DNA of 38,940 nt from Chitinophagales bacterium (GTDB lineage Bacteria > Bacteroidota > Bacteroidia > Chitinophagales > JADIYW01), in contig JADLAJ010000101.1 of NCBI GenBank assembly GCA_020848255.1, positions 1-38,940 of the forward strand, written 5' to 3'. Under the pieces are notes generated by a model. The model ran no database searches and was not told the DNA's origin. It saw only the letters and a list, made by a program, of their open reading frames with translations. Of this stretch, positions 1 through 11,998 are shown piece by piece. Numbering within the stretch: the first letter of the stretch is position 1; every line of letters begins with the position of its first letter. Made by a program: the position numbers and the translations under genes.

Positions 1-1764
1 AAGATTGTACACAACGCCTGGAAGTCAGCAGAGCCGGGCATTTTATTCTGGGATACCATTACTCGCGAATCATTGCCGGATTGTTATGCAGATTTAGGAT
101 TTAAAACGGTATCTACCAATCCTTGCGGTGAAATTCCATTGTGTCCTTACGATTCTTGTCGTTTGCTGGCCATCAATTTATTTTCGTATGTAGAAAATCC
201 ATTTACGAAACATGCCACATTTAATTGGGATTTATTCAAACAACACATCGCCTATGCACAGCGCATCATGGATGATATCATCGATTTAGAATTAGAAAAA
301 ATTGATACGATTTTAGACAAGCTGAATAAAGATCCGGAAACGGAAGATATTAAACACACAGAAATTAATTTATGGAATAAGATTCGCAACATGGCAGTCT
401 TAGGTCGTCGCACCGGTGTGGGTATCACGGCAGAAGGAGATATGCTGGCGGCTTTAGGTCTGCGTTATGGGAGCGATGAAGGCATTACATTTGCCGTAGA
501 TATCCATAAAACAGTGGCATTGGAAGCGTACAGAGCATCGGTACATCTGGCAAAAGACAGAGGTGCATTTGAAATATTTTCTGCTGAACGCGAGAAAAAT
601 AATCCCTTCATGCTGCGATTGAAAGAAGCGGATGCTCAATTGTATTACGAGATGCTGGAACATGGCAGAAGAAATATTGCGTTGCTGACGATTGCACCAA
701 CAGGCACTACGAGCTTGATGTCGCAAACCAGTTCCGGAATTGAGCCGGTGTTTTTACCGGTATATAAAAGACGTCGTAAAGTAAATCCGAATGATAAAAA
801 TGTGCGTATTGATTTTGTGGATGAAGTAGGAGATAGCTGGGAAGAATATGTGGTGTTCCATCACCGTTTCAAAGAATGGATGGAAGTGAACGGCTATAAC
901 ACGAACAGAAATTTCTCGCAGGAAGAACTGGAAGAGTTGGTGAAAAAATCACCGTATTATAAAGCTACTTCTAACGATGTGGACTATCTGAAAAAAGTAC
1001 AAATGCAGGGTGCTATTCAGAAATGGGTAGATCATTCCATCAGCGTTACGATTAATATGCCGAACGATGTGACGGAAGAAATCGTATCGCAATGTTATAT
1101 GGAAGCCTGGAAGTCCGGTTGTAAAGGCGTTACCGTATACCGTGATGGTTCACGTTCCGGTGTGTTGATTAGCAACGAGGAAAAAAAGAAAGAAGAGACG
1201 ACAGAAGGAGCTGCACATTTCCCGATTACACGCCCTGCTTCTTTAAAAGCAGATGTGGTGCGTTTCCAAAACAACAAAGACAAATGGATTGCCTTCATTG
1301 GTTTAATGGATAATAAACCTTACGAAATTTTCACCGGGTTGAATGATGATGAAGACGGAATTTTATTGCCGCGTTGGGTGAATGAAGGCACCATCATTAA
1401 AAACAAAGAAGCAGACGGCACTTCGCGTTACGATTTTCAATACAAAAACCAACGTGGTTATAAGACGACGATTGAAGGATTATCGCACAAATTCAATCCT
1501 GAATACTGGAACTATGCGAAATTGATTTCAGGTACCTTAAGACATGGAATGCCGATAGAAAATGTGGTGGAATTAATCAGCAGTTTGCAGTTAGATGAAG
1601 CCATTAATACCTGGAAAAACGGCGTGGTACGTGCCTTGAAACGCTATGTGCCGGATGGAACGATGGCGCAGAAATCGAAATGTCCGAACTGCGGTTCTAC
1701 GAATCAGCAATATTTAGAAGGCTGTTTAACCTGCAAAGATTGCGGTGCTTCGAGATGTGGGTAG
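1..1764 (+). CDS. nrdJ: Adenosylcobalamin-dependent (class II) ribonucleoside-diphosphate reductase, C-terminal part; 5' truncated by the window edge
   Basis: Frame is open from base 1 (KIVHNAWKSAEPGILFWDTITRESLPDCYADLGF...STNPCGEIPLCPYDSCRLLAINL); the ORF-track TTG start at 73 is an artefact. RNR motif NPCGEIPL, LLTIAPTGTTSL, and C-terminal Cys-rich tail CPNCGSTNQQYLEGCLTCKDCGASRCG typical of B12-dependent RNRs. Confidence 0.93.
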   Translation, partial: KIVHNAWKSAEPGILFWDTITRESLPDCYADLGFKTVSTNPCGEIPLCPYDSCRLLAINLFSYVENPFTKHATFNWDLFKQHIAYAQRIMDDIIDLELEKIDTILDKLNKDPETEDIKHTEINLWNKIRNMAVLGRRTGVGITAEGDMLAALGLRYGSDEGITFAVDIHKTVALEAYRASVHLAKDRGAFEIFSAEREKNNPFMLRLKEADAQLYYEMLEHGRRNIALLTIAPTGTTSLMSQTSSGIEPVFLPVYKRRRKVNPNDKNVRIDFVDEVGDSWEEYVVFHHRFKEWMEVNGYNTNRNFSQEELEELVKKSPYYKATSNDVDYLKKVQMQGAIQKWVDHSISVTINMPNDVTEEIVSQCYMEAWKSGCKGVTVYRDGSRSGVLISNEEKKKEETTEGAAHFPITRPASLKADVVRFQNNKDKWIAFIGLMDNKPYEIFTGLNDDEDGILLPRWVNEGTIIKNKEADGTSRYDFQYKNQRGYKTTIEGLSHKFNPEYWNYAKLISGTLRHGMPIENVVELISSLQLDEAINTWKNGVVRALKRYVPDGTMAQKSKCPNCGSTNQQYLEGCLTCKDCGASRCG

Positions 1765-1835
1765 AATTATTATGGAAGAGATAAAAAAGACCGCAACATA
1801 ATGTTAGGTGCAATGCGGACAATCACGTTAGACAA

Positions 1836-2261
1836 ATGAAAACTGTTAAAGATTATATCACCGCAGACATAAGTTGGCTTCAGGAAAATGATCTTAAATA
1901 TCGACTTGGAGACATCAAACTGGACAATGGTTCCCTCAACATTTTATACAATGACAAATTTGCCTTAAAAATATACGACAGACTCGGACACGGATTTGGT
2001 GTGACAATTAACTTAGCGGACAAATATGACGATAGTATTTACGACAACGACAAATTCAGTTTGCACTGGGCGTTCGTATATTTTAAACTTAAGCAAAGAG
2101 CTTCCTTTGACAAGCGGACAGAAAATCAATATTTACAAAATCTGCCGAACTTAGTTAATGACATTAAAACCATTGTTCCGCGACTCAATCAAATGACTAA
2201 AGCCGACTGGGACAACATGAAAAAATGGGTGGACATAGAATCGAAAAAACAATTCAGTTAA
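1836..2261 (+). CDS. Hypothetical protein, 141 aa, single ORF of the cassette-like insert
   Basis: ATG lies 2 nt after a second GTTRRRY-like box (GTTAGAC 1827-1833). By eye it uses far more GAC/GACAAA codons than flanking genes, which prefer GAT, suggesting foreign origin. No family recognised. Confidence 0.7.
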   Translation: MKTVKDYITADISWLQENDLKYRLGDIKLDNGSLNILYNDKFALKIYDRLGHGFGVTINLADKYDDSIYDNDKFSLHWAFVYFKLKQRASFDKRTENQYLQNLPNLVNDIKTIVPRLNQMTKADWDNMKKWVDIESKKQFS

Positions 2262-2304
2262 TTGCTGACAACTAACCAGACAGAAGCACAGCATCTAACA
2301 GCAC

Positions 2305-2371
2305 CTACTTGCAATTTTTTGCGCGTTAGCGCTCAAATGCGTAACTTGACAAAGCAAAAAACTACAAGTAG
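2305..2371 (+). repeat. attC-like imperfect palindrome (long hairpin)
   Basis: CTACTTGCAATTTTTTGC (2305-2322) versus GCAAAAAACTACAAGTAG (2354-2371): 16 of 18 positions complementary, with an inner hairpin GCGC-GTTA-GCGC (2321-2332). Confidence 0.6.
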
Positions 2372-2395
2372 CCACAAAATGTTGCGGTCTTTTTT

Positions 2396-3646
2396 TTAAT
2401 TCGCTCTCAACTTAGACGGTTTCTTTCCGAAAACCATGTGGTAAATAGTTTTAATTAACACCATCCACGGACTCAGATGAATATTAGGAGCTTCACCTTT
2501 ACCAATGCGTTTCAGTTGTGCACTATACCAGGCCGTTTCCATCAATCCCATTTTGTCTACCATGCCAAAACCGGTTTTTATGGGTTTGACAGCAAGAAAT
2601 GTTTTGCCTGAAATTATTTTATTGGGTGCATCGGTTTCAATAGCTAATAGTCTGGCAAGGCCAACAAAATCTACCGCATCGGAAGAAATTGCCTGTGCCA
2701 TACCCTCTGCTGAACGGAAACCGCCGGTAACAGCTAAAGCTGTGGTACAAACTTTTCTGGCTTTTTCTGCAAAATCTAAGAAGTATGCTTCTCGTTGTAT
2801 GGTGCTTTCTTTCACTGGTTCTTTAGACGATTTAACACCAGTCATTACAGGTGCCTCGTAGGTTCCACCGGAAATTTCGATTAAGTCCATACCAGCCTCA
2901 GAAAGTACACGAATTAAATCGAGTGATTCTTCTTCGGTAAATCCGCCGCGCTGAAAATCCGCAGAATTTAATTTAATACTGATGGGAAAAGAAGCGCCTA
3001 CTTTTTCTCTCATGGCCTTATAAATTTCTAAAACAAACCGTCGGCGGTTTTCAGGATTGCCGCCATATTCATCCGTTCTGACATTGTGATGTGGTGATAA
3101 AAACTGACTCACTAAGTAACCATGTGCGCCATGAATCTGAACACCGGAGAAACCTGCTTTTTGTACAATGGCTGCAGCTGTTGCAAAACGTTGAATCAGG
3201 TCTTTTATTTCGGGTTCACTGAGTTCTCTTGGTGTTGGAAAGAATGCCTGCATATCTTTCCGGAACGGAATAGCAGATGGCGAAACGGTTTCTTTGTTTA
3301 GTCCTTTCGGTGCTTGTTTTCCGGGATGGTTGAGTTGTACCCAGCATTGTGTATTATTTTGTGTAGCTGCTTGCGCCCATTTCCGCAGTGCATTCAGATG
3401 TGTTTCATCTTCGATAATTACGTTGCCGGGTTCACCTAAAGCACGATGGTCAATCATTACATTTCCGGTCACACAGATACCAATTCCACCATTTGCCCAG
3501 GCGCCGTAAAGTGTTGCTAAATCAGGTTTCGGTGCACCATCAGATTCGCCCAGGGCTTCACTCATAGCTGATTTCAGTAAGCGGTTTTTTACGACCGTTC
3601 CGTTTTTAAGTGTGTATGGTTGAGCAATGATTGTTTTTGATGACAT
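2396..3646 (-). CDS. NADH:flavin oxidoreductase / Old Yellow Enzyme family protein
   Basis: TIM-barrel OYE motifs: LKNGTVVKNRLLKSAMSEA, CWVQLNHPGKQAP, FSGVQIHGAHGYLVSQFLSPHHNVRTDEYGGNPENRRRF, ALAVTGGFRS. Confidence 0.93.
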   Translation of the reverse strand: MSSKTIIAQPYTLKNGTVVKNRLLKSAMSEALGESDGAPKPDLATLYGAWANGGIGICVTGNVMIDHRALGEPGNVIIEDETHLNALRKWAQAATQNNTQCWVQLNHPGKQAPKGLNKETVSPSAIPFRKDMQAFFPTPRELSEPEIKDLIQRFATAAAIVQKAGFSGVQIHGAHGYLVSQFLSPHHNVRTDEYGGNPENRRRFVLEIYKAMREKVGASFPISIKLNSADFQRGGFTEEESLDLIRVLSEAGMDLIEISGGTYEAPVMTGVKSSKEPVKESTIQREAYFLDFAEKARKVCTTALAVTGGFRSAEGMAQAISSDAVDFVGLARLLAIETDAPNKIISGKTFLAVKPIKTGFGMVDKMGLMETAWYSAQLKRIGKGEAPNIHLSPWMVLIKTIYHMVFGKKPSKLRAN

Positions 3647-3791: not shown

Positions 3792-4556
3792 ATGAAAAAT
3801 ATAGCAGTACTTATTTTATGTTGTATTTCCACGTTCCTTTTTTCGCAGGAAAAGGAAGCAGAGTCTATAGGTTCTATTTCCACAGACCGTCCTGACCAGA
3901 CGGAAACACCTGATGTGGTGCCATTCAAATATTTCCAGATGGAAATGGGATTTAATATCGAAAGTCAGCATAAAGAATTGTCTTTTGTACATCCGACTAT
4001 TTTATGGAAAGCAGGAATATTTAAGTCGACGGAGATACGTTTAATTACGGATATTTCTTCATTCAAAGATTCTACCGGAAAGTACAGAAGCGGATTGTCA
4101 CCCGTTCAGATTGGATTTAAAACAGCTATTTGTGAAGAAAAAAAAGCAAGACCTAAGATTTCATTTATTGCACACATGGCGGTGCCTTATATTTCCACTA
4201 AAAATCAGCGTACCAAATATTTTGCTCCAAATTTCAGATTTACCTTGGAACATACCTTAAAAAAGAACCTCATTTTAGGATATAATGTTGGAATGGAATG
4301 GGACGGCGAATCACCGTATCCGTCGTTTATTTATACCATCGTAAACGGCGTGGATATCACGGACAAATGGTATTTCTATTATGAGTTTTTCGGAGATATT
4401 CCGGTCGATAGGAAATCCACACATACCTTTGACGGAGGTTTTGCGTACCTGATAAAAAATAATATGCAGATAGATATTTCAGGTGGTTTTCAGTTATACC
4501 CTTTTGTAAAAGGCTGGTACACTTCGATTGGATATTCTTTTCGGGTTCCGCGATGA
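3792..4556 (+). CDS. Outer-membrane transporter-like protein ('MetA-pathway of phenol degradation' type beta-barrel)
   Basis: Signal peptide then SISTDRPDQTETPDVVPFKYFQMEMGF motif; alternating beta-strand pattern; C-terminal aromatic-rich strand GWYTSIGYSFRVPR. Confidence 0.65.
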   Translation: MKNIAVLILCCISTFLFSQEKEAESIGSISTDRPDQTETPDVVPFKYFQMEMGFNIESQHKELSFVHPTILWKAGIFKSTEIRLITDISSFKDSTGKYRSGLSPVQIGFKTAICEEKKARPKISFIAHMAVPYISTKNQRTKYFAPNFRFTLEHTLKKNLILGYNVGMEWDGESPYPSFIYTIVNGVDITDKWYFYYEFFGDIPVDRKSTHTFDGGFAYLIKNNMQIDISGGFQLYPFVKGWYTSIGYSFRVPR

Positions 4557-4979: not shown

Positions 4980-7463
4980 TTAATTAAGTGCTTTTATAAA
5001 ATCTTTTAGTAGCTGCTCCATTTTTGTAAAATCTTTTACACTGTGGCTGAAAAATCTGAAATGATCTGCATTTTCATTTGAGTAAGTTGAATAAAAACAT
5101 TTGCTACTGCCTTTGCAGGAAATTTTAACTTCATCTACTACAGATGAACCAACAGATTTTCCAATGGTAATAATGGTATTGTTTTTTAGTTCGTTGATGT
5201 CTATGGAAGATTTATAATTTGCACCGTACACAAAAAATCCAAAATATACTTTTCCGTCTTTAACTTCTACATTTTTATAGGTTTCTGCGTTGTATGTTTT
5301 AAGGTACTCGTTCAGGTTTTTTAATGGTTCTGTGTAATTTTTATTACTTGATGTTGATGAAGTATTTTCATTAGCAGTAACTTCTTTTATTCTTATTTTT
5401 TTAAATTTAAATAGTATTCCATCAAAATAAATATCGCCATAAAACGTAAGATTATCATCATTTGGTATTATATATGTTTTTGTTTTTCCTTTTTTGCCAA
5501 TGTATTTTTTTGCTTTATCAAAATTTGGATCTGAGTTGTCAATATCTGTTAAAATAATTTCTTTATCATAAAGAATCGCACGTAATGTGCCTGTGGATTC
5601 TTTTACTTCTTTCGTTGAATTATTTAATTTTGCAGCAGCTTTTTCGAGTGCATCCCAATCTTCGTCGAAATCATCATCATTGGTTTTTGATGTAGGTTGT
5701 TGTCTTTCTTTTGCTTTTTCTTCTCTGCTTTTATTTGCAGATACTGTTGAATTATTAGTTGAAGTTTGTTTCTTGCCTAAATAGGCATCTCTGAAATTGT
5801 TTAGTAAACCTGCCAGTTCCTGATAATTATAAGAACCGCTTTGAGTAAATTGAGTATAGTCTTCCGTGCCGTTTACTTTCCAATCGGTGGAGATACATTT
5901 ATTCACACCTTTACATTTAAAAATAACACGGCTGTACTGTTCCTGTATGACAGCACCTTCTATGTCTTCCATTTTAAATTTGTTGTATTTTCCGGCTTTA
6001 AAGCGATCATAGATATAGCCATCTTTTACTTCAAAATAACCGTAATACCCATTGTCAAAAGTTTTCAGGTAATCGTTTAATTTTTTGAGTGCAGGTTCAT
6101 AGTTTCCTGTTGAAGCTGAATAACCTGATGTGCTATTCTTTGAATTGGCAGTATTAGGTTTTGAAATTTCAGACTGAGTTATTCCAGATTTGTTCCCACT
6201 GTTAGATGTATTTGAATTGCTTTTTTTTAATGTTGATATCAAATCATTTATTAGTTGAATAAATTCTTCAGTGTCAAAATTTTTATCTTGATACATTTTT
6301 AAACCTGTAGTCTTACCAGTTGTGTAGGTAGCATTCATGCAGTTCTCTCCATTCAAACATCTGATTTCAATTTTCTTATTTGTTTCAACAACATAAGCTT
6401 TATCTAAATCACTTATTAATGCACTGCAATAAGTACCTGCTTTTAATCGAATAAAAATTTCATTATTAATAACCTCAAAATATCCATAGTAACCGTTGTC
6501 AAACGTTTTGAGGTAATCGTTTAATTTTTTGAGCGCACTTTGATAATTTCCAGTAGAATTATTTTTAGTGGATGTTGTATTATTACCGTTGTTATCTGTA
6601 TTGGATTTTAAGCTTTCCTGTCTTCTTTTTTCTGCTGCATAATCAATGTTGTTTTCTCCGTCTTTATTTTTAGTGTTTGTTTCTTTACACGCAGCAACTA
6701 AATTATCCAGTAAGGAAATGAGTTCAGTGGTATTGAAGTCGGTTGATTGCGAAAAACTGAAACTGTTATAGTTCTGATTAGTGAACGTTGAAAATAAACA
6801 ATTATCAGTTCCTTTACAATAAAGTTCAACCTTGCGTTTGGGTTCCTTTTCATAGGCTTTCCCAATGTCAGATATTTTTGCTTTGCAATAGTTATTGCCA
6901 TCTTTGAACCGGTCATATAAATAACCATCCTTAATTTCCAGATAGCCGTAATAACCGGTGTCAAAAGTTTTTAAATAATCGTTTAATTTTTTAAGTGCTG
7001 TTTGATAATTACTATTAGATGATATTGAAGTTTTATTTTCAATTAAAGCAACATCATTTTTATAATTACCAGTATTTTTTTTATAAGCAGTTAGTAAGTT
7101 ATTTAATAATCCAACCAACACTTCTTTGTCAAAATATTCGGTCTGTGAAAAGCTAATATTTTTGTGATAAGAATCTGTATAAGTTGAAAATACGCAATCT
7201 TTACTATCAGTACATTCTATACTTACTTTATATTCGTTATCTAATGCAACAGCATTACCTAAATATTTTATTTCAGACTTGCTGTATTTGCCAGACGGAA
7301 ATCTGTCATATAAATAACCGTCTTTAATTTCCAGATAACCATAATAACCGTTATCAAACGTTTTCAGGAAGTCGTTTACTTTCTTAAGTTCTTCTTTGTA
7401 AGATTGGCTAAAACCAACGTAAAATAAGGTAATTAAGAGAATTGTTGCTGTTGTTTTTTTCAT
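4980..7463 (-). CDS. Secreted protein with five copies of a ~110-aa repeat domain and an inserted SH3-size domain
   Basis: Signal peptide MKKTTATILLITLFYVGFSQ; five units starting (N)YxxxLKKLNDYLKTFDNGYYGYxEVKDGYxYDRF..., each with a CX5C pair (CTDSKDC, CKGTDNC, CLNGENC, CKGVNKC, CKGSSKC). Confidence 0.85.
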   Translation of the reverse strand: MKKTTATILLITLFYVGFSQSYKEELKKVNDFLKTFDNGYYGYLEIKDGYLYDRFPSGKYSKSEIKYLGNAVALDNEYKVSIECTDSKDCVFSTYTDSYHKNISFSQTEYFDKEVLVGLLNNLLTAYKKNTGNYKNDVALIENKTSISSNSNYQTALKKLNDYLKTFDTGYYGYLEIKDGYLYDRFKDGNNYCKAKISDIGKAYEKEPKRKVELYCKGTDNCLFSTFTNQNYNSFSFSQSTDFNTTELISLLDNLVAACKETNTKNKDGENNIDYAAEKRRQESLKSNTDNNGNNTTSTKNNSTGNYQSALKKLNDYLKTFDNGYYGYFEVINNEIFIRLKAGTYCSALISDLDKAYVVETNKKIEIRCLNGENCMNATYTTGKTTGLKMYQDKNFDTEEFIQLINDLISTLKKSNSNTSNSGNKSGITQSEISKPNTANSKNSTSGYSASTGNYEPALKKLNDYLKTFDNGYYGYFEVKDGYIYDRFKAGKYNKFKMEDIEGAVIQEQYSRVIFKCKGVNKCISTDWKVNGTEDYTQFTQSGSYNYQELAGLLNNFRDAYLGKKQTSTNNSTVSANKSREEKAKERQQPTSKTNDDDFDEDWDALEKAAAKLNNSTKEVKESTGTLRAILYDKEIILTDIDNSDPNFDKAKKYIGKKGKTKTYIIPNDDNLTFYGDIYFDGILFKFKKIRIKEVTANENTSSTSSNKNYTEPLKNLNEYLKTYNAETYKNVEVKDGKVYFGFFVYGANYKSSIDINELKNNTIITIGKSVGSSVVDEVKISCKGSSKCFYSTYSNENADHFRFFSHSVKDFTKMEQLLKDFIKALN

Positions 7464-7474
7464 AAAATGGATGT

Positions 7475-9970
7475 TTATGGTATTATTTTTACGGTTACTT
7501 TTTCAAAGCTAATCACATTAAAATCAAACGTAAATTCTATCATGCCGGAATAGGTGCCGTCACCATTCGGTTTTAATGCGGTTTTGGTGGTCCCTTTTTT
7601 GCCGATATACTCTTTTAGCGTATTGTAATTTTTATCAGCATTGTCGATAGAAATAACTTCTACATACGTATCTCTTGGGATTTCTTTTTTTGTATTTGAC
7701 AAAACATCTGTCATTGTTTTTTTTATTTGTACATTTTTTTCGGTTGAATTACTTTCCGTCATTTCTTTGTACAGTTGATCTCTTTCCAGTTGATTTTTTT
7801 TCAGTTCGGCATCAATTTTCTTCAACTCATCAGCATCTGATTTAGACATTCTTACAGGAATAGTGTAAGAATAATTAGTATTGATAGAAAATCTATCATA
7901 GCCTTTTACTTCCGTCAGATATTTTATGGCTTGTGCTTCGTTCATGTTTTCATTAAAATTTGAATTCTTTAGTTTCCAGGTGCTTGATTGATATTTATCT
8001 TCAAGAATCAGTCTGTCTGCTTCTGTGAAAATCTGATTAACTGGTCCGAAAACACTTACTACACGTATCAATTCATCATCATTCGTAGCGTAATTTGAAA
8101 AATTGCCATCATACTGCAAAAGGAAGACACCTTTAAATTTATTTTTCTCGGTCCATTCTGCTTTTGCATACGCATCCTGTTTCATCTTCTCTTCACGGGC
8201 GGCCTGTTCTATGCGGTATTTTTCCATGTTCGCATCAGTGGTCGCTTTTATACTGCTGATGTAGGAAGCGTCAGGTTTATTAATATTTACATTACTTTTT
8301 GTGCAAAAATACCAGCCTTCACTACTTTTGGGTTGCATGTTTTGTGCTAAGTGATAATTTTCATTTTTGGGAACATAAATTAAATGTGTCGATCCTAAAT
8401 TAGCAAGCTGGTAGACTTTCATATCCACAAATACTGCATTTCTCTGAGCATCAATAATTTGTTTTTCCGTCTTCAAACCATCCGGCCGATATTGTACATC
8501 GCATAAATCTTTTAATTTCTTAAATTCTGCATCTGATAAGCCCAATGAGGTTTGTAATTCTTTATCACTAATATTATAACCGGCATTGTAATACTGGCCT
8601 TCAATACTTATCATATCCTGAATATATACTTCTTTTTTAGCTTGCCAGTTGCCAAAACCACCGCCTTTAAACGGTTTGTCAATGGTAAATGCAGTATAGT
8701 TAAAAGCCGGGTTCATAAAGTCCTGTATGATTTCAGCATCTACGCACATAAAGAAACCAATGCCATCATCTGACAGCATTTCTTTCGGAGCATGTTTATT
8801 GCCAGCATTTCTGATAAAAATAATAGAGTATTGTCCATAGCTCCTGTATTCTCCATTATTTTTATCTGCTCTGAAGGTTAATACTCTTTCAAACGTTAAA
8901 TTTCGGAATGCAAATTTGAACAGCGTATTGATATCCGGATAACTTTTATATAATGCTGGCCAGTTTTCATAGGCACATTGTTCCACTACCAGTTTAAGTG
9001 TCTCAGGAGTTAAGCTTGCCGCAGATGCGAGATTTTTATAATCCGATTTTTCAAAGGGTGGTTTTTGTTTTTTGGGTATGGCATTTGGATATTTTTCACT
9101 GAAAAAATCCGTTGGCCACATATACCCGCTCTTTGCTTCCAGGATTTTCAGAGTTGTGGCTGGGTCCTTTTTTACTTTGTTGATTTCTGTATTTGTTATA
9201 CTAGTTGAAGTTGGTTTTGCTCCGGTATTATTTTCAGCAAGAACATCCGTTTTGGTTTCCAGTTCCAGTTTGCCGTTTTTATACACTCTGTTACTGGTCT
9301 GTTTTGTATTGGCATTATAGAATTGAGCATTGCCGTCAATCTTATCTTCTTTCCAGATACCTGTTAAATAAGAATTATCAGGATAGGTAATCTTGCCATT
9401 TCCCTGACGAAGTCCGTTTTTGAAGTTGCCTTCAAATTTTATTTTGTCAGCGGTATACTGAATTCCATTTCCATCAAATTTGTTATTCAGTAAATTGCCT
9501 TTGTAATATAAAGCTCCATCATTATAATAACATTCGGCAGTTCCGGAAATCGCATTGGTACTGCATTTTCCTTTTATGGTATAACCAAACGTTGATTCCA
9601 CCACACAATCGCCGTTGCTGCAGTTGCCAGAAATGCAACTGAATTCAAATGAACTTAAAGGTGCTTTATTGAGGATGGTTTTCTTTACATCCGGTGCTCT
9701 GTAAAATCTCAGTTCATTGTTCATAGCTGGTGCATCGCTTAATACTTTTGTCAGCAATTCCTTTTTTTTAAAAGATAATGGAATATCATTAATGAAATTT
9801 AAAAAATCACCAACTTTTAATCCTGCTTTATCAGCCGGACTGTTTTTAAATACTTTTGTTACAATTACGGAGTCTTCTTCGTTTGTATAATAGGAAAAGC
9901 CAAAAATATTTTGGCAGTAAGATAATGTAGATATACATTGACAAAAAATTAAGAGTAGTATTCTTCTCAC
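7475..9970 (-). CDS. Secreted PDZ-domain and MORN-repeat protein, with a C-terminal domain shared with the 4980..7463 protein
   Basis: N-terminal PDZ-like VIVTKVFKNSPADKAGLKVGDFLNFINDIPL; MORN-like ALYYKGNLLNNKFDGNGIQYTADKIKFEGNFKNGLRQGNGKITYPDNSYLTGIWKEDKIDG; C-terminus IDNADKNYNTLKEYIGKKGTTKTALKPNGDGTYSG. Confidence 0.8.
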   Translation of the reverse strand: MRRILLLIFCQCISTLSYCQNIFGFSYYTNEEDSVIVTKVFKNSPADKAGLKVGDFLNFINDIPLSFKKKELLTKVLSDAPAMNNELRFYRAPDVKKTILNKAPLSSFEFSCISGNCSNGDCVVESTFGYTIKGKCSTNAISGTAECYYNDGALYYKGNLLNNKFDGNGIQYTADKIKFEGNFKNGLRQGNGKITYPDNSYLTGIWKEDKIDGNAQFYNANTKQTSNRVYKNGKLELETKTDVLAENNTGAKPTSTSITNTEINKVKKDPATTLKILEAKSGYMWPTDFFSEKYPNAIPKKQKPPFEKSDYKNLASAASLTPETLKLVVEQCAYENWPALYKSYPDINTLFKFAFRNLTFERVLTFRADKNNGEYRSYGQYSIIFIRNAGNKHAPKEMLSDDGIGFFMCVDAEIIQDFMNPAFNYTAFTIDKPFKGGGFGNWQAKKEVYIQDMISIEGQYYNAGYNISDKELQTSLGLSDAEFKKLKDLCDVQYRPDGLKTEKQIIDAQRNAVFVDMKVYQLANLGSTHLIYVPKNENYHLAQNMQPKSSEGWYFCTKSNVNINKPDASYISSIKATTDANMEKYRIEQAAREEKMKQDAYAKAEWTEKNKFKGVFLLQYDGNFSNYATNDDELIRVVSVFGPVNQIFTEADRLILEDKYQSSTWKLKNSNFNENMNEAQAIKYLTEVKGYDRFSINTNYSYTIPVRMSKSDADELKKIDAELKKNQLERDQLYKEMTESNSTEKNVQIKKTMTDVLSNTKKEIPRDTYVEVISIDNADKNYNTLKEYIGKKGTTKTALKPNGDGTYSGMIEFTFDFNVISFEKVTVKIIP

Positions 9971-10093: not shown

Positions 10094-11998
10094 TTAGCTT
10101 TGCAATTTTTCCCAATCTTGCATCAGTTTTTCCAATGCTTTTTTTTCTGTGCCTAATTGCAATACGATTTGTTCATCATATTTACCGTCTTCGGAAAGTG
10201 CTTCTATTTTTTCTTCCAGTTTTTTTATATCAAATTCTTTGATGCCAATTTCTTCTTCCAGTTTGGATATCTGATTTTTGATGCGTTTCGCTTCTTTATC
10301 ATCTACTTTATTTGCCGGAGCTGTAACTTCTTTTTTCTGCGGATTGTTAGTTGTCGCTTGCGGACTCAATTCCACCTCTCTGAAGTTTGCCACACGACGT
10401 TCTTCAAAGAAGGCTTCCACATCACCAACATGTTCCTGTACCACACCATCTTTAAATTCAAATGTTTTCTCCGTCAAACCCACTAAAAAGTCACGGTCGT
10501 GCGAAACCACAATCACCGTTCCGGGATATTTGGAAATAGCATCTTTCAATACATCTTTAGCGCGTAAGTCTAAGTGATTGGTCGGCTCATCGAGAATCAG
10601 TACATTGCTTGGATTCAGGAGCAGATGTGCTAAACAAACACGAGCACGTTCACCACCGCTCAATACGGATATTTTTTTGGTGGCATCGTCACCGCTAAAC
10701 ATAAAAGCACCTAAAATATTGCGCACCTGTGCACGCATATCATTTGGAGCCGTGTCTTCCATGTATTGTAAAATAGTCAACTCTTTAGGTAAATGTTCTG
10801 CATGGTGCTGCGCAAAGAAAGCGATGTTTACGTTATGTCCTATTTCTAAGTTTCCTGAATTATAATCCAACTCTTTAGCAATAATTTTTGCCATCGTGGT
10901 TTTTCCCATTCCGTTCTTTCCAATGAAAGCAACTTTATCGCCGCGTTCAATCTCTAAATTCACGTCATGAAAAACAGGTTTGTCGCCATAGCTTTTTGCC
11001 AGATTTTTTGCAGTAACTACCACCTTTCCGCTTTGTTGTCCCATCGGAAACTGAAAACGCATGGAACGTACATCATCCTGTTCCACTTCCACAATATCCA
11101 TTCTGTCCAGCTTCTTCACCAAACTCTGCGCCATACTGGCTTTACTGGCTTTCGCTTTAAAGCGTTCAATATTGCGCTCAATTTGTTTTATCTGATCCTG
11201 CTGGTTTTTAAATGTCTGTAACTGTTTCTCTCTACGCTCTTCCTTTAAAATAAGGTATTTGGAGTAATTGGCTTTATACTCGTACATTTTGCCCAATTCC
11301 AGTTCTATCGTTTTGTTACAAACGTTATCCAAAAAGGTTTTATCATGCGATACCAATACAATGGCACCTTCATATTTCTGAAAAAACTCTTCGAGCCAGA
11401 TAATAGATTCGATGTCTAAGTGATTCGTAGGCTCATCGAGCATCAGCAAATCCGGATTCTGTAATAATAATTTAGATAATTCTAAACGCATGGCCCAGCC
11501 ACCGGAAAAAGTTGAAGGAGATTTTTCAAAATCTTCGCGCTGATAACCTAAGCCCAGTAAAACCAGTTCCGTTTTCTTGTCTTTGTCATCAATATCCAGA
11601 TGCACGAGTCTGTCATTTAAATCACAAAATAGTTGTGATAAATTCATATAATCATCTGTATCGTAATCGGTACGCGTTTCCAGCTGGTGTTGCACTTTTT
11701 CCAGTTCTTCCTGTAATACGTTAATTTCTTTAAAGGCAGTTTGTGCCTCCAGCCAAACGGTCGGTTCATTTTGACCACGGATTTCCTGTTTCAAAAATCC
11801 GATGGTATAGCCACCCGGTTTAGAGATGGTTCCTTCCTGTGCAGATATTTCCCCATTTAATGCTTTCAGCAAGGTAGATTTACCCACACCATTTCGTCCT
11901 ACCAATCCGATTCTGTCGCGTGGCTGAATCGTAAAAGTAACATTGTCGAATAAAATCCGGCTCCCAAATATGATAGATAAATTTTGTGCTTGTAACAT
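10094..11998 (-). CDS. ABC-F family ATP-binding cassette protein
   Basis: Two ABC domains: GRNGVGKSTLL / TFSGGWAMRLELSKLLLQNPDLLMLDEPTNHLD and GKNGMGKTTMA / LSGGERARVCLAHLLLNPSNVLILDEPTNHLD; no TM segments; coiled-coil C-terminus. Confidence 0.95.
   Translation of the reverse strand: MLQAQNLSIIFGSRILFDNVTFTIQPRDRIGLVGRNGVGKSTLLKALNGEISAQEGTISKPGGYTIGFLKQEIRGQNEPTVWLEAQTAFKEINVLQEELEKVQHQLETRTDYDTDDYMNLSQLFCDLNDRLVHLDIDDKDKKTELVLLGLGYQREDFEKSPSTFSGGWAMRLELSKLLLQNPDLLMLDEPTNHLDIESIIWLEEFFQKYEGAIVLVSHDKTFLDNVCNKTIELELGKMYEYKANYSKYLILKEERREKQLQTFKNQQDQIKQIERNIERFKAKASKASMAQSLVKKLDRMDIVEVEQDDVRSMRFQFPMGQQSGKVVVTAKNLAKSYGDKPVFHDVNLEIERGDKVAFIGKNGMGKTTMAKIIAKELDYNSGNLEIGHNVNIAFFAQHHAEHLPKELTILQYMEDTAPNDMRAQVRNILGAFMFSGDDATKKISVLSGGERARVCLAHLLLNPSNVLILDEPTNHLDLRAKDVLKDAISKYPGTVIVVSHDRDFLVGLTEKTFEFKDGVVQEHVGDVEAFFEERRVANFREVELSPQATTNNPQKKEVTAPANKVDDKEAKRIKNQISKLEEEIGIKEFDIKKLEEKIEALSEDGKYDEQIVLQLGTEKKALEKLMQDWEKLQS

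Follow-up and report, generated by a model that had tools for sequence, protein, structure and literature searches.

A solitary gene cassette in a split terminator and a candidate integron-like system in Bacteroidota

In a Chitinophagales genome, the two arms of what reads as one bidirectional terminator lie more than half a kilobase apart, between two convergent genes. What came between them, and which machinery could have put it there? Our window, the whole 38,940-nucleotide stretch of DNA analyzed, holds the following features around this point.

1-1764 (+): 3' part of nrdJ, the gene whose terminator is split
1783-1803 (+): left half of the split bidirectional terminator, with AAAAAAGACCGCAAC at 1783-1797, ATAAT at 1798-1802, and the junction G1803^T1804
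1804-2381 (+): cassette of 578 bp, starting TTAGGTGC and ending ...ACAAAATG
1836-2261 (+): sole open reading frame (ORF) of the cassette, 141 aa, in the same direction as nrdJ
2293-2383 (-): attC-like recombination site, bottom strand folded, matched by covariance model R1; R'' 2293-2299, spacer A2300, left arm 2301-2322, loop, right arm 2354-2375, spacer 2376-2380, G2381^TT
2314..2362 (-): wobble conserved in the family, A2314.C2362 on the top strand and T.G on the bottom strand
2382-2397 (+): right half of the split terminator, G2381^TTGCGGTCTTTTTTTT, equal to TTGCGGTC followed by T8
2396-3646 (-): Old-yellow-enzyme-like (OYE) gene, convergent with nrdJ, its stop codon overlapping the T-run of the terminator

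A cassette between the halves of a terminator

The initial annotation proposed that the terminator between nrdJ and the OYE gene had been split at a G^TT, and both a direct read and a flank-pair control bear this out. A repeat search returned the arms as a 22-nt inverted pair, 91% complementary and 569 nt apart. The rejoined flanks fold as DNA at -17.2 kcal/mol (z about -10) and restore a 14-bp stem; among 200,000 random left/right pairs of GTT flanks from the window, a 12-bp stem arose once and a 13-bp stem never. Because AATGTT is present at both insert edges (1800-1805 and 2378-2383), the breakpoint can be placed only to within these 6 bp, which contain the G^TT. An empty terminator had been anticipated behind nrdJ in relatives, which holds in part: three of five same-genus genomes (L016, L017, L018) have an intact hairpin terminator and no insert 3' of nrdJ, but the terminator has a different sequence and the OYE gene is absent, the next gene being a 254-aa gene with its counterpart at window position 3792.

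The insert has the ends of an integron cassette. Its first bases, GTTAGGT, fit GTTRRRY and its ATCTAAC fits RYYYAAC, with G^TT as the boundary, and its own start GTTAGGTGC pairs with R'' GCATCTAAC through eight Watson-Crick pairs and one G.T. To its left lies neither an attI nor an attC. End boxes and pairing thus support the earlier reading of a solitary cassette outside any array at a G^TT. Its identity as an integron cassette stands with a qualification: the insert obeys integron logic but is not of the canonical class type, belonging instead to a Bacteroidota system with a hairpin signature of its own and a recombinase that lacks the I2 region. The imperfect stem noted at its 3' end exists as well, but is longer than the 18/18 nt first given, spanning 22 positions (2301-2322 against 2354-2375). 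The window supplies a clean example of a single cassette that has left its array and disrupted a terminator.

Searches of genome contigs, viral contigs, the 61 related genomes, plasmids, Pfam, and PADLOC returned no homolog of the cassette ORF; the sole similarities were two weak matches in PHROG, and the single-sequence fold was poor (pLDDT 45). Lying co-directionally behind nrdJ with its terminator broken, the ORF is probably transcribed by read-through.

A family of attC-like sites in Bacteroidota

The site at the end of the cassette belongs to a family. An Rfam search matched nothing, the attC-like site included, and querying DNA with just the 98-bp site yielded short matches only. A covariance model of a Bacteroidota attC family (R1), in which the window is not included, matched positions 2293-2383 on the minus strand by cmsearch with 38.8 bits and E=2.9e-8, R1 E-values being rough. 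The window site has the covarying bottom-strand stem, the G.T at the family's stem position, and the 1-nt and 5-nt spacers of this family. It is among the weaker matches, being 91 nt long where a typical family attC has about 128 nt, with AACA in place of AACG with its invariant G, and one C-C mismatch in the stem. Folding favors its bottom strand (-21.3 kcal/mol, against -16.9 kcal/mol for the top strand), the probable recombination substrate.

The family was delineated in related genomes. A strict hand-made attC finder was unusable on embedded sites, since R' lies at the cassette's own start, and a seeded finder gave a signal swamped by noise; a finder restricted to the inner stem made 153 calls across 48 loci, compared with 22 when the sequence was reversed. 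On the bottom strand, 48 array attCs (alignment A1) share a 19-bp consensus stem with 18 doubly compensated pairs. In 76 further hits (A2), nearly all from loci outside the model, covariation was 0.733 against 0.18 when shuffled and 0.04-0.12 when slid, for an alignment fitted to the model. Because the attC sequences are related, counts over sites are not independent, and with this limit one G.U wobble occurs in all 48 sites of A1 and is retained in 71 of 75 further sites (A2), and oriented sites carry A.C on the top strand at 39 sites versus G.T at 7. In an ungapped stem model, such positions appear as A.C (top) or G.T (bottom) pairs rather than as extrahelical bases.

Pairing between a cassette's two ends recurs across the arrays. 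We took the 75 cassettes flanked by attCs of the covariance model on both sides; R'' agreed with the cassette's own start at five or more of six variable positions in 67 (54 perfectly), compared with 4 for the start of the next cassette and a permuted mean of 5.9. Such agreement is predicted by circular excision and re-insertion at G^TT. Sites matching R1 occur in 48 of 61 related genomes, with up to 44 per genome, and a scan of GTDB species genomes with a common attC variant had Bacteroidota alone (including Ignavibacteria) among the matches listed. Apparent solitary attCs in relatives were considered and set aside, most of them being the first cassette behind an attI.

The complete plasmid NZ_CP041688 of Chryseobacterium sp. 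carries a recombinase gene, then an attI-like site, then a cassette array, in which a near-identical gene-less cassette occupies several positions with different neighbors, always bounded by G^TT. At L139, one plasmid array holds at least two, and apparently three, near-identical copies of a gene-less cassette (7121-7294, 9217-9389, and near 11600-11770). An unusually large cassette of about 6.1 kb (L066:1674-7770, G006:C11) encodes a 915-aa protein resembling a type IIG restriction-modification enzyme and an 886-aa PHP/ATPase-like protein.

The adjacent recombinase and its known relatives

Further copies of the site and a candidate recombinase, both anticipated in the same genome, were found there: seven more attCs (E<=1.6e-4) and, as best match to TIGR02249, a 354-aa protein on contig C89 whose 189 bits fall short of the cut-off of 265. 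No canonical IntI exceeded this cut-off in the window genome, a fragmented MAG that is 86.6% complete, so that such a gene could be missing from the assembly. About 150 bp behind the C89 gene, at the contig end, lies an attI-like TTTCGCCTATTTTAGAG^TTA (...CGCCTATTTTAGAG^TTA). A separate contig of the window genome (G000:C55, L258, about 850-1615) has a second attI-like site, TTGCGTATATTTGAGAG^TTAGTGG, and one cassette.

Relatives of the C89 protein repeat this layout, with the gene followed by CGTATATTTGAGAG^TTA or CTATATACAAG^TTA and then by cassettes. We compiled 25 attI sites beside recombinase genes, attI-like by sequence; attCs of this family are present in 25 of the 34 recombinase neighborhoods fetched, in 23 cases 3' of the gene and co-oriented with it. 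In the other two (L160, G009:C3; L162, G015:C20), attI and array lie 5' of the recombinase gene and divergent from it, the layout of class 1 integrons. The attC model found no match in 95 kb of control loci. An attI beside a recombinase gene with cassettes behind it is the arrangement of an integron platform, and the link of this recombinase to the attCs is one of adjacency.

The family keeps the active site of tyrosine recombinases and lacks a region that characterizes IntI. All catalytic residues are present and the active-site columns are invariant, the SP[L/F]D tail is shared with IntI, and among solved structures IntI4 (PDB 2a3v) is the closest fold match. I2 (about 40 aa) is absent from all 46 aligned members, which have 74-77 aa between the motifs compared with 116 in IntI1/IntI3 and 81-82 in Xer-like proteins, and TIGR02249 scores of 189-194 bits stay below the cut-off, so neither the I2 region nor the score of a canonical IntI is found. 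XerA, XerC, and XerD (4a8e, 5hxy, 1a0p) likewise have no I2 and give similar HMM scores, but the family falls below the Xer cut-offs, its neighbors are attI sites and cassettes, and a quick tree places IntI, three Xer-like proteins, and the new family on separate sides, with the branching order unsettled. Unlike IntI, its members also carry an additional N-terminal domain of about 75 aa (residues 1-75 in C89) with a weak resemblance to DUF5710, possibly an arm- or hairpin-binding domain.

At the level of the cassettes, the likeness to integrons of classes 1-3 and of chromosomes covers the cut at G^TT, the RYYYAAC and GTTRRRY boxes, the complementarity of R'' and the own start, the imperfect hairpin, the arrays beside a tyrosine recombinase, and the content of mostly one or few ORFs. 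In contrast to class 1-3 attCs, the Bacteroidota sites combine 1- and 5-nt spacers with the G.T wobble and a typical length of about 128 nt; R1 misses the class 1 and class 3 loci tested, and the recombinase gene is usually followed on its 3' side by attI and a co-oriented array.

I2 has been described as necessary for cassette capture, as conferring single-strand recombination, and as occurring in no other protein (eLife 2020, PMC7790495), although direct causal proof is wanting because deletion of I2 kills IntI1 (PMC7790495). Strand choice in canonical attCs is mainly set by extrahelical bases, and deleting these keeps recombination and blurs strand choice (PMC2727003), which makes a variant free of extrahelical bases and I2 mechanistically conceivable. 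A survey of tyrosine recombinases, in the portion available to us, notes that conservation of the insertion is incomplete within an “integron-like” subgroup and calls it essential for integron function (PMC8138268); the insertion-less members are described in that portion without cassettes, in contrast to the family here. IntegronFinder 2 reported one complete integron in Bacteroidetes proper, in Salinibacter ruber (PMC9024848). We found no earlier description of an I2-less cassette system of Bacteroidota in the literature, with preprints and most subscription journals outside the scope of the search.

The origin of the insert and its target

The cassette ends, the attC signature, the split hairpin, the arrays, the attI sites, and the I2-less recombinase with its full set of catalytic residues are all directly legible in the DNA. 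We suggest that the insert is a gene cassette from an integron-like capture system of Bacteroidota, in which a tyrosine recombinase of the IntI/Xer branch without I2 would join a folded bottom-strand attC to the attI beside its own gene. Cassettes would thereby enter between G and TT and pile up in arrays; here, one cassette would instead have entered the nrdJ/OYE terminator hairpin, at a secondary G^TT located in the pair that closes its loop. That this I2-less system made the insert, by secondary-site insertion at the terminator, we regard as very probable. The I2-less recombinase is the likely catalyst of cassette movement.

Could a canonical integron, with an I2-containing IntI in the present or a former host, have made the cassette, the I2-less recombinase being unrelated? 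Canonical integrons do share the G^TT cut and the GTTRRRY and RYYYAAC boxes, and secondary-site insertion by canonical IntI1 is known (PMC10127599, PMC12901181). Yet a canonical IntI exceeds the TIGR02249 cut-off in one of the 61 genomes (G030:C40:3592-4530, 422 bits), which has no R1 sites, while 48 others have them; two plasmid stretches from class 1 and class 3 integrons gave no R1 match; and R1 sites lie directly behind I2-less recombinase genes. We consider a canonical origin improbable. More improbable still is insertion of a short transposon or MITE that duplicated a 6-bp target. It would leave AATGTT at both insert ends, as observed, but the element has no terminal inverted repeats of its own, the strongest end repeat being the target's hairpin arms, and the attC match together with the own-start complementarity already accounts for both ends. 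Least credible of all is an ordinary chromosomal segment whose flanking hairpin halves pair by chance. The cassette ORF is unique, so there is no second copy to prove mobility, but the 14-bp split stem surpasses the best of the random flank pairs, and the attC match (E=2.9e-8) also speaks against this reading.

Within the preferred reading of secondary insertion by the I2-less system, a sharper version holds that the terminator hairpin was a preferred ectopic target, its extruded form, with AA^C in the stem by the loop, being used like an attC. An attI-like target can be ruled out at the insertion point, where the sequence scores like any GTT; 36% of random GTTs score equally on the attI matrix. 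GTTs spanned by a stem of at least 12 bp are rare (1 in 6,262 intergenic GTTs and 1 in 30,935 overall), and accidental landing in one is unlikely. Hairpin rarity and the non-attI-like target together favor targeting of the folded terminator, although they do so on one event, noticed afterwards. The hairpin also has no equivalent of the L-box beyond its loop and supplies only an R-box-like stem with AA^C. A scan for further split hairpins with cassette logic in 2.18 Mb of fetched loci returned the window alone (the control gave 1), and no second ectopic insertion emerged convincingly from joined-flank ORF tests. Recognition of the folded terminator is plausible, and the preferred-target version, on balance, falls somewhat short of an even chance. 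Lone cassettes at a non-att G^TT are known from reports on attG and secondary-site insertion (Loot et al. 2024 via PMC12901181; aadB into RSF1010 via PMC10127599), compared with which the present case differs in its terminator hairpin target and its I2-less system.

A wider proposal, which we put forward tentatively and would not yet bet on, is a Bacteroidota integron that may recombine single-stranded attCs without I2. The asymmetric spacer and G.T wobble of the site would themselves determine which strand is chosen and prevent second-strand exchange; the system would represent an ancestral pre-I2 state or an independent route, and its off-targets would include terminator hairpins. A natural I2-less recombinase family beside hundreds of cassette sites makes the need for I2 directly testable. 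Given attC-like sites in so many genomes of one Bacteroidota lineage, current tools have probably missed a large cassette pool, which includes apparent restriction-modification genes (one cassette). Elsewhere in the window, positions 4980-7463 (-) encode a secreted-looking protein of 827 aa in which a NDYLKTFDNGYYGY unit is repeated about four or five times.
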